Below, in pieces: positions 9,839-18,966 of a stretch of DNA of 64,000 bases. Source of the DNA: Planctomycetota bacterium (lineage in GTDB: Bacteria > Planctomycetota > UBA1135 > GCA-002686595); NCBI GenBank assembly GCA_020853575.1, contig JADYYP010000009.1, forward strand, positions 28,348 through 92,347, given 5' to 3'. The position numbers were made by a program, and so were the translations under genes. Position 1 is the stretch's first letter. Each line of letters starts with the position of its first letter. Below the pieces are notes generated by a model. That model was not told the DNA's origin, made no database searches, and saw nothing but the letters and a program-made list of their open reading frames with translations.

Positions 9839-12800
9839 ATGGCTCGCCGCAAGCCCGCTCGCAGCTCACCACAGTACGCGGTGTTCGTGTCGTCGACCTT
9901 CCTCGACAACATCGAGCGCCGCGAGCTCGTCATCGACGCGATCCAACGCGCCGGCATGCGCCCCGTCGGCATGGAGTGGTTCACGTCCGCGAGTCGACCG
10001 ACCGCGGAGATGTGTTGCGAGCAAGTCCAGGCCTGCGACGTGCTCGTCGGGATCATCGCCTACCGCTACGGCTGGGAACCGCCCGGCGGCGGCGGGAAGT
10101 CGATCACGGAGCTCGAGTACGACGCGGCGCGCGAGCGCTTGATGTTCCTCGTCGACGAGCGCGCGGTACGTGTCGATCACACGCGCGACATCGACGAGGG
10201 CGACGACCGCTGGGACAAGCAGAAGAAGCTCGACGCCTTCAAGAGGAAGATCCGCAGAGACGTCGAGCGCACCGCGGCGCCGTTCACTGACAAGGACCTC
10301 GGAGTCCAGGTGCTGCAAGCGCTCAACGACTGGCGCACCGACTTCGAAGCGCGCGGCGGCGAGCCGCGGACGAGCGCGAGCGACTCCGCGTCGACGGTCG
10401 CCTCACTCGCCGAGCTGCGCGACTACATCCAACGCCTCGCGCGCCTCAACGACTCGGTCAGCGTCGTCGGCTTCGGCCAGCGCGTGCGCGGCAAATTGAA
10501 GCTCGAGGACTTGCACGTCGATCTCACGGCGGTCGCCGACCTCAAGCTCGGCGGCGATTCCGATTTCGCCGACGCGCAAGACGCGGTCGAGCGCATGGCG
10601 CGCCACGGCTCGCACTGCGATTTGAAGCTGAGCGAGGCCTTCTCTTTCGCGTCCGAGCGCGAACGCAGCGGCCTCGCGCTGCTCGGCGATCCGGGCTCCG
10701 GCAAGACGACGCACATGAAGCGCATCGTGTTGCAGCTCGCCGAGCGCGACGGCGCCAAGTCGCTTGGCCTCCCCGCCGATGTCGTGCCGGTGCTCGTGCT
10801 GCTGCGCCACCTCGCCGACGCCGGCGGTGACATGGGCGAGCTCGTGCGCCAATCGATCGAGCAGCCCGAGCTCGGCTTCGAGCCCGGCACGGCGCAGCGC
10901 CTGCTCGCGCGCGACAACGTGCTCTACCTGCTCGACGGGCTCGACGAGGTGAAGAGCGGCGCCGAGCGCGACGGCGTCTCGCGCTGGATCGAGCGCACGC
11001 TCAAGCGCCACTCGGGCCGGCGCTGCGTGCTCACGTGTCGCTACGCGGGCTACAAGCGCGGCGCGCGGCTCGACGCACAGTTCCTCGAGCTGCACTTGCG
11101 ACCGCTGTCGCCCGAACAGACGACCGAGTTCATCGCGCAGTGGTTCGAGACCGTCGAGCGCTGCGAGAACGCCGACGCGTCGAAGGCGGCGCGCGAGGCG
11201 CAGCGCCACACCGCGGCGCTGACCAAGCGCCTGAACGAGCCCGAGTTCCGCTCCGCGCGCGTCGCCGAGCTCAAGCGCAACCCGCTGCTCCTCTCGTCGA
11301 TCTGCCTCGTGCACCGCGACAAGGGCGAGCTGCCCAAGCACCGCGCGAAGCTCTACGACGAGTGCATCGCGATCCTGCTCGAGCGCTGGCGCGACGGCGA
11401 GCGCGGTCGGGTTTCGATCGAAGCCGACCGGGCGCGCGCGTTCCTGTGCCCGATGGCGTTCTTCCTCCACCGCGAGCGCGGCCGCACGCGCGCGACGGCG
11501 AAGCAGCTCGAGCCCATCGTCGCGGCCGCGATGCAGGGCGTCGCCGGCGCGCCGAGCGCGAGCGCGCTGCTCGAGTCGGTGCGCGACGAGTGCGGACTGC
11601 TGACGGGCTGGAGCGGCGACGTCTTCGGCTTCATGCACCTCGGATTCCAGGAGTACCTCGCCGCGCACGACATCCTGAAGCGCGGCTACGGCGACCCCGC
11701 GCCCCTGCGCGAGCTCGCCAAGCACTTCGGCGAGGACTGGTGGCAAGAGGTCACGTTGCTGCTGCTCGCGATCGGCCCGCGCGCGGCGTTTGAGACGCTG
11801 ATGAAGGCCGTGCTCGCGCGGCCCGACGTGCTGAAGCGCGAAGAGCTGCTGCGCCTGTGCCTGACGGAGGCCGGCGAGCGCTCGGCGAAGCCGTTCGAGG
11901 CCGTGCTGAAGTCGAGGAAGTCGGCCCCGGCGCTGCGCGAACTCGTGTGGCGGCTCCTGAACGAGGTCGATCCGGCGACGGCGAAGCGCTATGCGCCGCC
12001 GGAATGGCAACAGCGAATCGAGATCGGCGCCGCGGCGGCGGCGCGCGGCGCGCCAACGGTCGAGGTGATCCGCAAGCGCTTCGTCGACCTCGAGTTCGCG
12101 AAGCTGCGCTTGGCGCTGATCCCGGCGGGCAAGTTCACGATGGGCTCGCCGGAGAGCGAGCGCGGTCGGCAAGACACGGAGGGTCCGCAGCACGAGGTCA
12201 CGCTGACGCGCGACTTCCATCTCAGCGTCACGACGGTGACGAACGCGCAGTACGAGCTCTACCTGCACGACGCGAAGGGCGCGAAGGAGCCCGCCTTGTG
12301 GAGCAACCGCAAGTACAACCAGCCGCAGCAGCCCGTCGTCGGCGTGTCGTGGGGCGACGCTCGCGCGTACTGCGAGTGGGCGACGAGGAAGCTCGCCGCG
12401 ACCGGCGATCGCCGCGTCGTGCGCCTGCCGACCGAGGCCGAGTGGGAGTACGCCTGTCGCGCGGAAACGACCTCGCGCTTCTGGTCCGGCGACGGCGACC
12501 CGGACCTCGAGCGCGTCGGTTGGTTCGGAGAAGGACCTTCGGGCGCTGCGCATCCGGTCGGTGAGAAGCCCGCGAACTCGTTTGGCTTGTTCGACATGCA
12601 CGGGAACGTCTGGGAGTGGTGTTCCGACTGGTTCGGGACGTACGCGGCCGACCGGCAAGTTGATCCCGCCGGGCCCAAGACCGGCTCCGCCCGCGTGCTC
12701 CGCGGCGGCAGCTTCTGGTTCATCGCCGTCAGGTGTCGTTCCGCCGCGCGCTTCAGGCTCGACCCCGGGTACCGCCTCGACTTCTTCGGGTTCCGTGTCG

Positions 12801-18700: not shown

Positions 18701-18966
18701 CGCGCGACGGCGAAACCCGCTTCGAAGCCGACGTTGGCGTTGGCTTTGTCAACGTAGACGATCGCGCACTCGGCCGGAGCCAATTGATCGACGACCAAGT
18801 CGCGCAGGATCTCGCCCTGCTGCGTGTCGAGGTTCGGCACGAACACCGACCAGCCCTTCGGCCACTCGCTCCGCAACACGTCGAGCGTGAAGCGGATCGA
18901 TGCGATCGTGCTGTCCCAAACGATGAAGGCGCGACGGAGCTTCGATTGCGATGCGTCGTTCGTCAT
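15727..18966 (-). CDS. DGR target 2: TIR-like-NACHT NTPase-FGE/C-type-lectin protein
   Basis: This protein of 1079 residues starts with what look like two Rossmann-type, TIR or nucleoside-deoxyribosyltransferase-like domains. The first covers about 8-100 (RRAFIVWDSTIASIRFTLDV, CAIVYVDKANANVGFEAGFA) and the second about 145-255 (VVWVIPNTNEARDGVENAAA, GYCYGLGLEVVVLEEQ). A NACHT NTPase follows, with Walker A LFGDPGAGKST (Lys about 369), Walker B WWFFDGLDEV (Asp about 445) and VVTSRRPGF. From about 850 there is an FGE/C-type-lectin domain (MGSPDDEDG, MHGNVLEWCSDRF, RVLRGGGGW, IGFRVALC) whose residues about 1027-1072 are VR2. A TATCCT -10 box lies 13 bases before the ATG. It converges on the reverse transcriptase gene. 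Its partner, target 1, has the same plan but a different N-terminal domain. Confidence 0.93.
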   Translation of the reverse strand: MTNDASQSKLRRAFIVWDSTIASIRFTLDVLRSEWPKGWSVFVPNLDTQQGEILRDLVVDQLAPAECAIVYVDKANANVGFEAGFAVARDKRTILACADSPVAEWVRSEPPFKGFTVDTLDDIEKLHACIEGREGLKPPPKPVKGATTLLLYPRNKVGKALAKVFERVFERLGAKENDAWRRPEPDRWSLLDLHEVLKGVGRVVWVIPNTNEARDGVENAAASVIAGYCYGLGLEVVVLEEQRERSVLDVAPLSKKPWTSAAELERDLASIFEPKDAPTDVLALYRAYLLRAHGDLVPFFPGIQAKTIDAVCVELQIARDSESSKKLEHGLRQEARFPRTLRELLSLPVGEQQPSTGRFVLFGDPGAGKSTISRHICFENADPREPSAPIAVFIPLTRIAAAQGDPFDFVESQLRDKRGAANAQGLAKKLRELAQSPDAIWWFFDGLDEVSGGAAHTRVREMLAAPPPGRCVVTSRRPGFQSLGESYLHFALQPLSADAQLELLRRWIPEHAERVLAQTQRSASLQGLAKNPLMLTLIAKLSENPAVSAPARRCDLYKRAVELLLQRGFGVNPTPVRDVGTARLILPTLSFLLQRTGKNEWTRDELNAFGWGLEKHSSDQVSGEPIFRMMATAFGSPPLFFDDLGKNSGILAAQDFDGESVRYLHRSFREFLAANEIGSWPTERITAFLKRLLEEEEEWQRKRRKQPEVASTDDESVTVRWAETFTFVCELIESPQDQAALIRLVFDAHKQIGLRALLFSQTLPPPEALPLLRDFALWDGDDLLVLARRWTEAASPDVVRGWLLSLVDASSDVMHAAHVHYALTTAKVPFERVEFFKHIGRPVPSALGMEFARIPSTDESGGPFLMGSPDDEDGREGSEGPQHRVTLASFKLGVTPVTEAQYARFERSRKPSKQERDQPAANVSWWDAWLFCAWLHEHARLPTEAQWEYACRAGTRTRFWSGDSDKDLDRVGVWSGSDGRGRKPVASKHAPNPWKLHDMHGNVLEWCSDRFGPYTPDEQTNPTGPETGSARVLRGGGGWDDAGGCRSAARLRLDPGFRGDDIGFRVALCAPPSSSNVDL
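15750..15888 (-). repeat. DGR variable repeat VR2
   Basis: This aligns without gaps to the TR with 15 differences, 14 of them at TR adenines: 8 A-to-G, 4 A-to-T and 2 A-to-C. One T-to-G is the exception. The encoded stretch is rich in Gly and Asp (GGWDDAGGCRSAAR), unlike the aromatic VR1. The adenine-poor 3' block is identical to the TR and VR1. Confidence 0.96.

Follow-up and report, generated by a model that had tools for sequence, protein, structure and literature searches.

The window analysed here, a stretch of 64,000 nucleotides from a Planctomycetota bacterium (contig JADYYP010000009.1 of assembly GCA_020853575.1), carries between positions 9839 and 18966 a diversity-generating retroelement (DGR) in which one template repeat (TR) lies between two receptor genes of opposite orientation, each with a variable repeat (VR). 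Judged by its sequence, the locus is an intact DGR. It belongs to the known NACHT-FGE kind and represents a variant whose facing pair of targets is conserved. The best overall explanation, to which we assign a probability of about 0.78, is that a single TR serves two facing NACHT receptors and that the reverse transcriptase (RT) together with Avd likely rewrites both VRs.

A search for direct and inverted repeats recovered three copies of one 139-nt sequence, which were aligned with each other:
14143-14281, plus strand: TR, 139 nt with 23 adenines
12680-12818, plus strand: VR1, 16 differences to the TR, 15 of them at adenines
15750-15888, minus strand: VR2, 15 differences to the TR, 14 of them at adenines
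Both VRs align with the TR over the full 139 nt without gaps, and beyond this length the resemblance ends on both flanks. The concentration of the differences on the 23 TR adenines is highly significant (Fisher p 1.5e-13 for VR1 and 2e-12 for VR2). The two VRs are unlike each other at 14 of the 23 adenine sites and at 2 of the 116 other sites; 11 adenine sites are altered in VR1 and VR2 alike, 18 in at least one VR and 5 in none. The initial annotation of this DNA had given the same counts of differences, which our alignment reproduced exactly. It had also placed the TR at 14143-14281 and assigned VR1 to a plus-strand gene and VR2 to a minus-strand gene, all of which was confirmed, and its picture of one template with two inward-pointing targets on either side of a core agrees with the sequence layout. 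An alignment of the three repeats, which it had proposed as a check, was run and placed the differences predominantly on the TR adenines. In the VR frame 22 adenines belong to complete codons, 11 at position 1, 11 at position 2 and none at position 3, and no substitution of these adenines can create a stop codon. Six codons of this frame are AAC, with 15 possible residues apiece, and the computed coding potential from adenine changes amounts to 6.7e12 proteins per target.

The two target genes are composed as follows:
9839-12847, plus strand: target 1, 1002 residues, with DUF4062 (residues 15-97), NACHT (280-437) and an FGE-sulfatase/C-type lectin domain (760-988) holding VR1
15727-18966, minus strand: target 2, 1079 residues, with two predicted TIR/deoxyribosyltransferase-like domains (residues 9-134 and 145-275), NACHT (360-510) and an FGE/C-type lectin domain (861-1067) holding VR2
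Both proteins combine a central NACHT domain with one lectin end that bears the VR near the C-terminus, and their FGE-sulfatase matches reach 3.8e-54 and 2.9e-41. Relatives of the two N-terminal domains of target 2 occur in proteins rich in TPR repeats (P0036-P0040 and P0042), which would join the same predicted effector to a different sensor.

Between the targets the order on the plus strand is HTH, Avd, TR, RT, where HTH stands for a protein with a helix-turn-helix domain:
13173-13796, plus strand: HTH_17 protein, 207 residues, with an Xis-like HTH and a predicted S23/Avd-type four-helix bundle (residues 84-207)
13793-14440, plus strand: Avd reading frame, 215 residues, with bAvd homology at residues 29-106
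14437-15429, plus strand: DGR-type RT, 330 residues, with IGALTSQ at residue 196 and YVDD at residue 229
All three frames are open. The TR sits within the Avd frame, and the Avd stop codon overlaps the start codon of the RT; in the related locus L063, unlike the window, the Avd frame terminates inside the TR region. IGALTSQ and YVDD are marks of DGR RTs. Together with matches to PHROG 1423 (5e-71) and RVT_1 (1.4e-7) they uphold the DGR-type RT of the initial annotation, and its Avd-like protein is borne out by a match at 2e-7 to PHROG 3206, annotated 'Avd protein of DGR', with a Pfam bAvd score of 27.5 bits that stays below the cut-off of 40. By fold comparison, the HTH protein may be an Xis-like HTH fused to an Avd-type bundle; a profile comparison of its C-terminus with Avd gave no alignment (probability 0.1%), a result that is not a clean negative, one of the seven rows being untrimmed. 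Rfam returned nothing at gathering scores within 9500-19500, and PADLOC matched mad8 and mad1 weakly, along with a large number of RT models.

For the analysis of related loci the RT was searched in 41 genomes (16 matched), in 154 genomes of the order (13 at E<=1e-40) and in 392 genomes of the phylum (3 at E<=1e-55). From these, 27 RT loci (19 and 8) were taken and scanned for repeat pairs with mismatches on template adenines. A TR-VR pair was present in 21 of the 27 loci, in L066 only with a shorter scanning length of 70 nt; six loci (L062, L076, L077, L078, L096 and L097) had no pair, the shorter length included. A tree of 26 RTs sets the window and seven loci apart by a branch with 100/100 support. 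All six loci of this group of eight in which both sides are present (the window, L063, L065, L066, L093 and L095) have the facing layout, with the upstream VR co-oriented and the downstream VR facing; contig ends remove the upstream side of L064 and the downstream side of L094. This comparison of related loci had also been suggested by the initial annotation. According to the sequences, the facing layout is a conserved trait of the RT group and as such is new, as are the HTH protein in the group and the post-VR box, core-less relative and island setting described below. The initial annotation contains neither this conservation nor the HTH protein with its predicted bundle, the box, or the NACHT and TIR-like composition of the receptors. 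Among the open-access matches listed, no title or abstract opening mentions DGR targets that face each other or a protein combining HTH and Avd, a result that takes in neither subscription literature nor most figures and supplementary files and does not prove that none has been described.

Within the group, VR1 and the TR lie 1263-1503 nt apart in all seven measurable loci, and the TR and VR2 lie 1398-1663 nt apart in six of seven; the exception is L066, with 1022 nt and an RT match of 209 residues. The HTH gene was found in all seven group loci that reach its position (the eighth locus is cut), and outside the group a weak match appeared in one of 18 loci searched, some of them short (L074, E 3e-3). 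The N-termini of the group targets differ and include trypsin-like, SIR2, kinase, deoxyribosyltransferase-like and DUF4062 domains. Three of the 20 remaining scanned loci (L068, L073 and L098) have targets on both strands, and there the RT precedes the TR. By kinship assignment the window genome belongs to the same family as G022, which holds L063 and L065. L065 contains a third VR gene with a remnant of the HTH gene alongside (L065:13953-14666), and this remnant suggests that target and HTH gene were multiplied by tandem duplication. In L066 (G035:C58:215000-231500) the RT match comprises residues 133-328 only and both VRs still face each other; this is perhaps a dying DGR. In L095 (2433-6244) the FGE sensor is apparently encoded on its own, by a short gene overlapping the end of a 987-residue open reading frame (ORF), and is not fused to that frame. 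A scan of contigs for RTs yielded one distant Bacilli RT (25%), which was not used.

Downstream of the VRs we identified a consensus box, TCGAYCHTTGAG, often followed by nATGTG. In the window, this region contains the following features:
12830-12848, plus strand: post-VR box at VR1, two overlapping copies of TCGAYCHTTGAG with one mismatch each
15719-15737, minus strand: post-VR box at VR2, two overlapping copies with one mismatch each
12871-12886, plus strand: candidate hairpin, 6-bp stem and loop ATCT, 53 nt past VR1 (the stem of the VR2 counterpart is imperfect)
12892-12907, plus strand: candidate hairpin CGGCAA-4 nt-TTGCCG, about 74 nt past VR1
15660-15675, minus strand: candidate hairpin CGGCAA-4 nt-TTGCCG, about 75 nt past VR2
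12823-12908: left arm of an inverted repeat (86 nt, 93%) common to both post-VR sequences
15659-15744: right arm, pairing with 12823-12908
With at most one mismatch and at most 120 nt downstream, the box was found at 14 of the 18 VRs and VR-like ends considered (of the 18, the RT group contributes 15, the relative G096 two and contig C56 of the window genome one) and at none of the 8 TRs, and with at most two mismatches at 15 of 18 and again none of 8; the VR counts are partly circular because the pattern was built from the same sequences, and the control sets are independent of it. The three VRs of L065 lack the box even at two mismatches. In more distant DGRs 1 of 10 VRs carries it at either threshold. 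At FGE genes elsewhere it was present in 1 of 24 rows (at most one mismatch) or 4 of 24 (at most two), a set in which two genes are entered twice (overlapping L013/L014), one more row extended past its locus and five come from two RT-less loci (L123 and L124); the sole row with the box at one mismatch, L126, bears a VR-like end of its own. The whole window contains six matches with at most one mismatch, four at VR1 and VR2 and the others at 18148 (minus strand) and 37926 (plus strand), and a scan of 112,002 bases elsewhere in this genome, a figure that counts both strands, gave none.

The DGR of the Bordetella phage BPP-1, the prototype of these elements, requires for efficient homing a hairpin with 8-bp stems directly past the VR, as reported in the available text of PMC3240598. 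Compared with the phage-type dimensions (7-10 bp stem, 4-34 bp past the VR), the stems in the window have 6 bp only and lie 53 nt past VR1 and about 74 nt past both VRs; no hairpin is conserved in position across the RT group. Unlike in BPP-1, it is a sequence box that is conserved here. The box and the HTH protein are candidates for target finding by a DGR without a conserved BPP-1 hairpin.

The relative G096, of the same family and another genus, has orthologues of both targets, facing and about 430 nt apart (L122, G096:C40:153000-172000), with the post-VR box kept and the DGR core absent. Identity is 78% for target 1 and 61% for target 2, the latter with 79-84% in the N-terminal 300 residues, 45-55% in NACHT and 53-71% in FGE. 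No HTH, Avd, TR or RT lies between the receptors, and the genome has no RT at E 1e-3; the identical query found 13 genomes of the order. A full-length TR-like copy of the VR was not detected in G096, where, apart from the two VRs themselves, the search gave just a VR-like end on C36 and a match of 39 nt at G096:C40:281-319. Measured against the TR of the window and not against its own lost template, the VR of target 2 differs at 14 of 23 adenines and 9 of 116 other sites (p 6e-8), and that of target 1 at 15 of 23 and 23 of 116 (p 3e-5). Because these differences lie disproportionately at TR adenines, we read G096 as a locus that lost its DGR core and retained the receptors. The initial annotation had stated that a relative with intact VRs and no TR would speak against a DGR. 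G096 is literally such a relative; its adenine-biased VRs are read as a sign of core loss and not as evidence against the DGR. Some points weigh against core loss: the C56 paralogue has a similar adenine bias (16 of 23 versus 25 of 116), selection could yield part of the signal since adenine codons mark variable residues, and the assembly is about 90% complete. G096 suggests that diversifying receptors can turn into fixed ones.

In the window a 40-nt direct repeat (78%; 12936-12975 and 15442-15481) flanks the core near the edges of the part that G096 lacks and is a possible recombination path for the loss. Another locus with no RT match in its genome, L123 (G140:C50:1-20000), contains three FGE receptor genes, two on the plus strand and one on the minus strand, facing; these genes have no box at one mismatch.

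Judging from about 13 kb that five of six congeners lack and from homology with G096 over the cassette only, the two receptors and the core between them resemble a mobile unit. In five of six congeners (G001, G003, G004, G005 and G006) the homologue of gene 4937-6124, which we take to be radical-SAM-like by eye, is separated by 94-1381 nt from cysS (gene 19084-20505); in the window the distance is 12,959 nt (6125-19083). In the congener G002 the first gene was not found next to cysS. This stretch also holds two genes, 6645-8318 and 8441-9706. Within the 18 kb compared, homology with G096 is limited to 9787-18987, and the flanking genes differ.

The system would operate as follows. The TR would be transcribed from the plus strand, and the RT with Avd likely copies it into cDNA with random bases at adenines; this cDNA would replace VR1 and VR2, so that both would be edited from the single TR. 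Carrying a predicted Avd-type bundle, the HTH protein might guide the RT-Avd complex to the DNA past the VR, perhaps to the box. Because VR and box carry their own direction, it would be irrelevant for homing which way a target points with respect to the core. In the receptors, the VR-bearing lectin domain would bind ligands of invaders and the NACHT domain would oligomerise, and the DUF4062 or TIR-like N-termini would be the effectors, by analogy with STAND/NLR defences. The geometry of a facing pair assigns its two targets to opposite replication directions; as one is co-directional with the fork and its partner runs counter to it, unequal rates of diversification are likely. GC skew gave too weak a signal to assign the replication direction in the window. 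These ideas can be joined into a two-speed immune cassette, in which the fork would cross the two receptors in opposite editing directions, favoured for one and disfavoured for the other, so that a single repertoire would supply one receptor that searches fast and one that keeps slowly, docking of the HTH-Avd protein at the box would free homing from orientation, and core loss would leave frozen innate sensors; as a whole, this combination is speculative and we think it unlikely to hold in every part.

The layout may also have no function of its own and stem from an inverted duplication of a target end that was inherited or moved as one block, a possibility that we rate somewhat short of even odds. 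The intergenic stretches past VR1 and VR2 share an inverted likeness of about 170 nt at 75%, the ends of the target genes match in inverted orientation along 231 nt (83%), G096 shares the cassette alone next to other flanking genes, and both G096 and one place in G140 show the layout with no RT. It is found, however, in all six complete loci, other families included, despite the differing N-termini, and the three of 20 remaining RT loci with targets on both strands likewise argue against a mere duplication. Passive inheritance of an inverted duplication accounts for the layout almost as well as selection for unequal editing rates would. It appears doubtful that the box serves to terminate transcription or to process the receptor mRNA and is not a homing element: it sits at or just past the stop codon and is retained in the core-less G096, but there is no T run behind it in the sequences inspected, it is rare where FGE genes lie outside DGR loci, at 1 of 24 rows, and it occupies the same region as the target-recognition element of BPP-1 described in the available text of PMC3240598.

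A DGR that is intact in sequence yet silent in this lineage, with the VRs as fixed relics, seems improbable to us. G096 suggests that VRs can outlast the core, and the RT match of L066 is confined to residues 133-328. Here, however, the RT, Avd and HTH frames are open, YVDD is present and each VR has a single non-adenine change, compared with 9 and 23 in the core-less G096 (against the window TR). We also find it unlikely that the receptors serve self/non-self or adhesion sensing and not anti-phage defence. Lectin-fold ends bind varied ligands, and PADLOC matches of the targets are weak and confined to mad8 (E 0.007 and 0.03); the combination of NACHT with N-termini of the DUF4062, TIR-like, SIR2, protease or kinase type, seen here and at related loci, is nevertheless the make-up of STAND defence proteins. 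In the available text of PMC10907252, STAND proteins with lectin ends are experimentally uncharacterised.

Compared with the BPP-1 DGR, which has one target and is not known to encode an HTH protein, the locus has two targets on opposite strands and an HTH protein. It resembles BPP-1 in the adenine-restricted TR-VR changes, in the presence of Avd and RT, in the order avd-TR-RT, in the position of the VR near the C-terminus of a protein with C-type lectin fold and in a post-VR element which the TR lacks. The target architecture is also like that of Avs and other bacterial NACHT antiviral proteins and of plant TIR-NLRs, with an effector-like N-terminus, NACHT and a C-terminal sensor; it departs from these in its sensor, a lectin domain that bears a DGR VR. 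Paired NACHT-FGE targets of DGRs have already been published. As far as described in the available text of PMC12875486 and PMC3240598, the TR RNA of BPP-1 is reverse-transcribed with adenine errors and the cDNA replaces the VR, aided by the post-VR element. STAND/NACHT-type cellular DGRs are known from Thiohalocapsa PB-PSB1 (DGR 3 and 6) and from clade 5D (Dore et al. 2024, PMC10907252, main text); the locus is like them in target make-up, with a central STAND NTPase, one C-type lectin end and commonly two targets per locus, and some N-termini there are TIR or peptidase domains. The main text of PMC10907252 is silent on target orientation or strand, HTH, Avd and hairpins in these STAND/NACHT-type DGRs, apart from one 'helix-turn-helix' gene at DGR 8, a possible part of an effector, and it reports that two targets at one locus diversify unequally.

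In the reconstituted BPP-1 DGR in E. coli, targets co-directional with replication were preferred up to 44-fold, and the authors propose, in the available text, that one DGR could edit several targets at different rates (PMC12875486, 2026). Unlike those engineered reporters, the pair described here is natural and conserved in opposite orientation. The locus joins two questions, the pairing of cellular DGR targets, which are proposed antigen sensors, and orientation-dependent editing, and an RT group with opposite targets in every complete member is a natural test of the idea of unequal rates. If the VRs are edited, the cell is predicted to gain two fast-changing sensors, likely immune ones.

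A search of the 6.17-Mb genome with the TR found the three copies of the window and a fourth place, on C56. There, an FGE protein (G000:C56:843-2495, minus strand, L005) has a weak nSTAND1 match, a decayed VR-like tip and a box with one mismatch. It was rejected as a third target, as 41 of 139 sites are unlike the TR, 25 of them non-adenine; C56 is at most a decayed target or one of a foreign template, not a current copy of the window TR. The genome has a second DGR-type RT on C47 (39% identical; L062, G000:C47:3000-19000, at 7356-8763). No TR-VR pair was detected in the 16 kb scanned at this locus; by eye, a TR-like sequence lies just past the RT, in the ORF 8239-8763.

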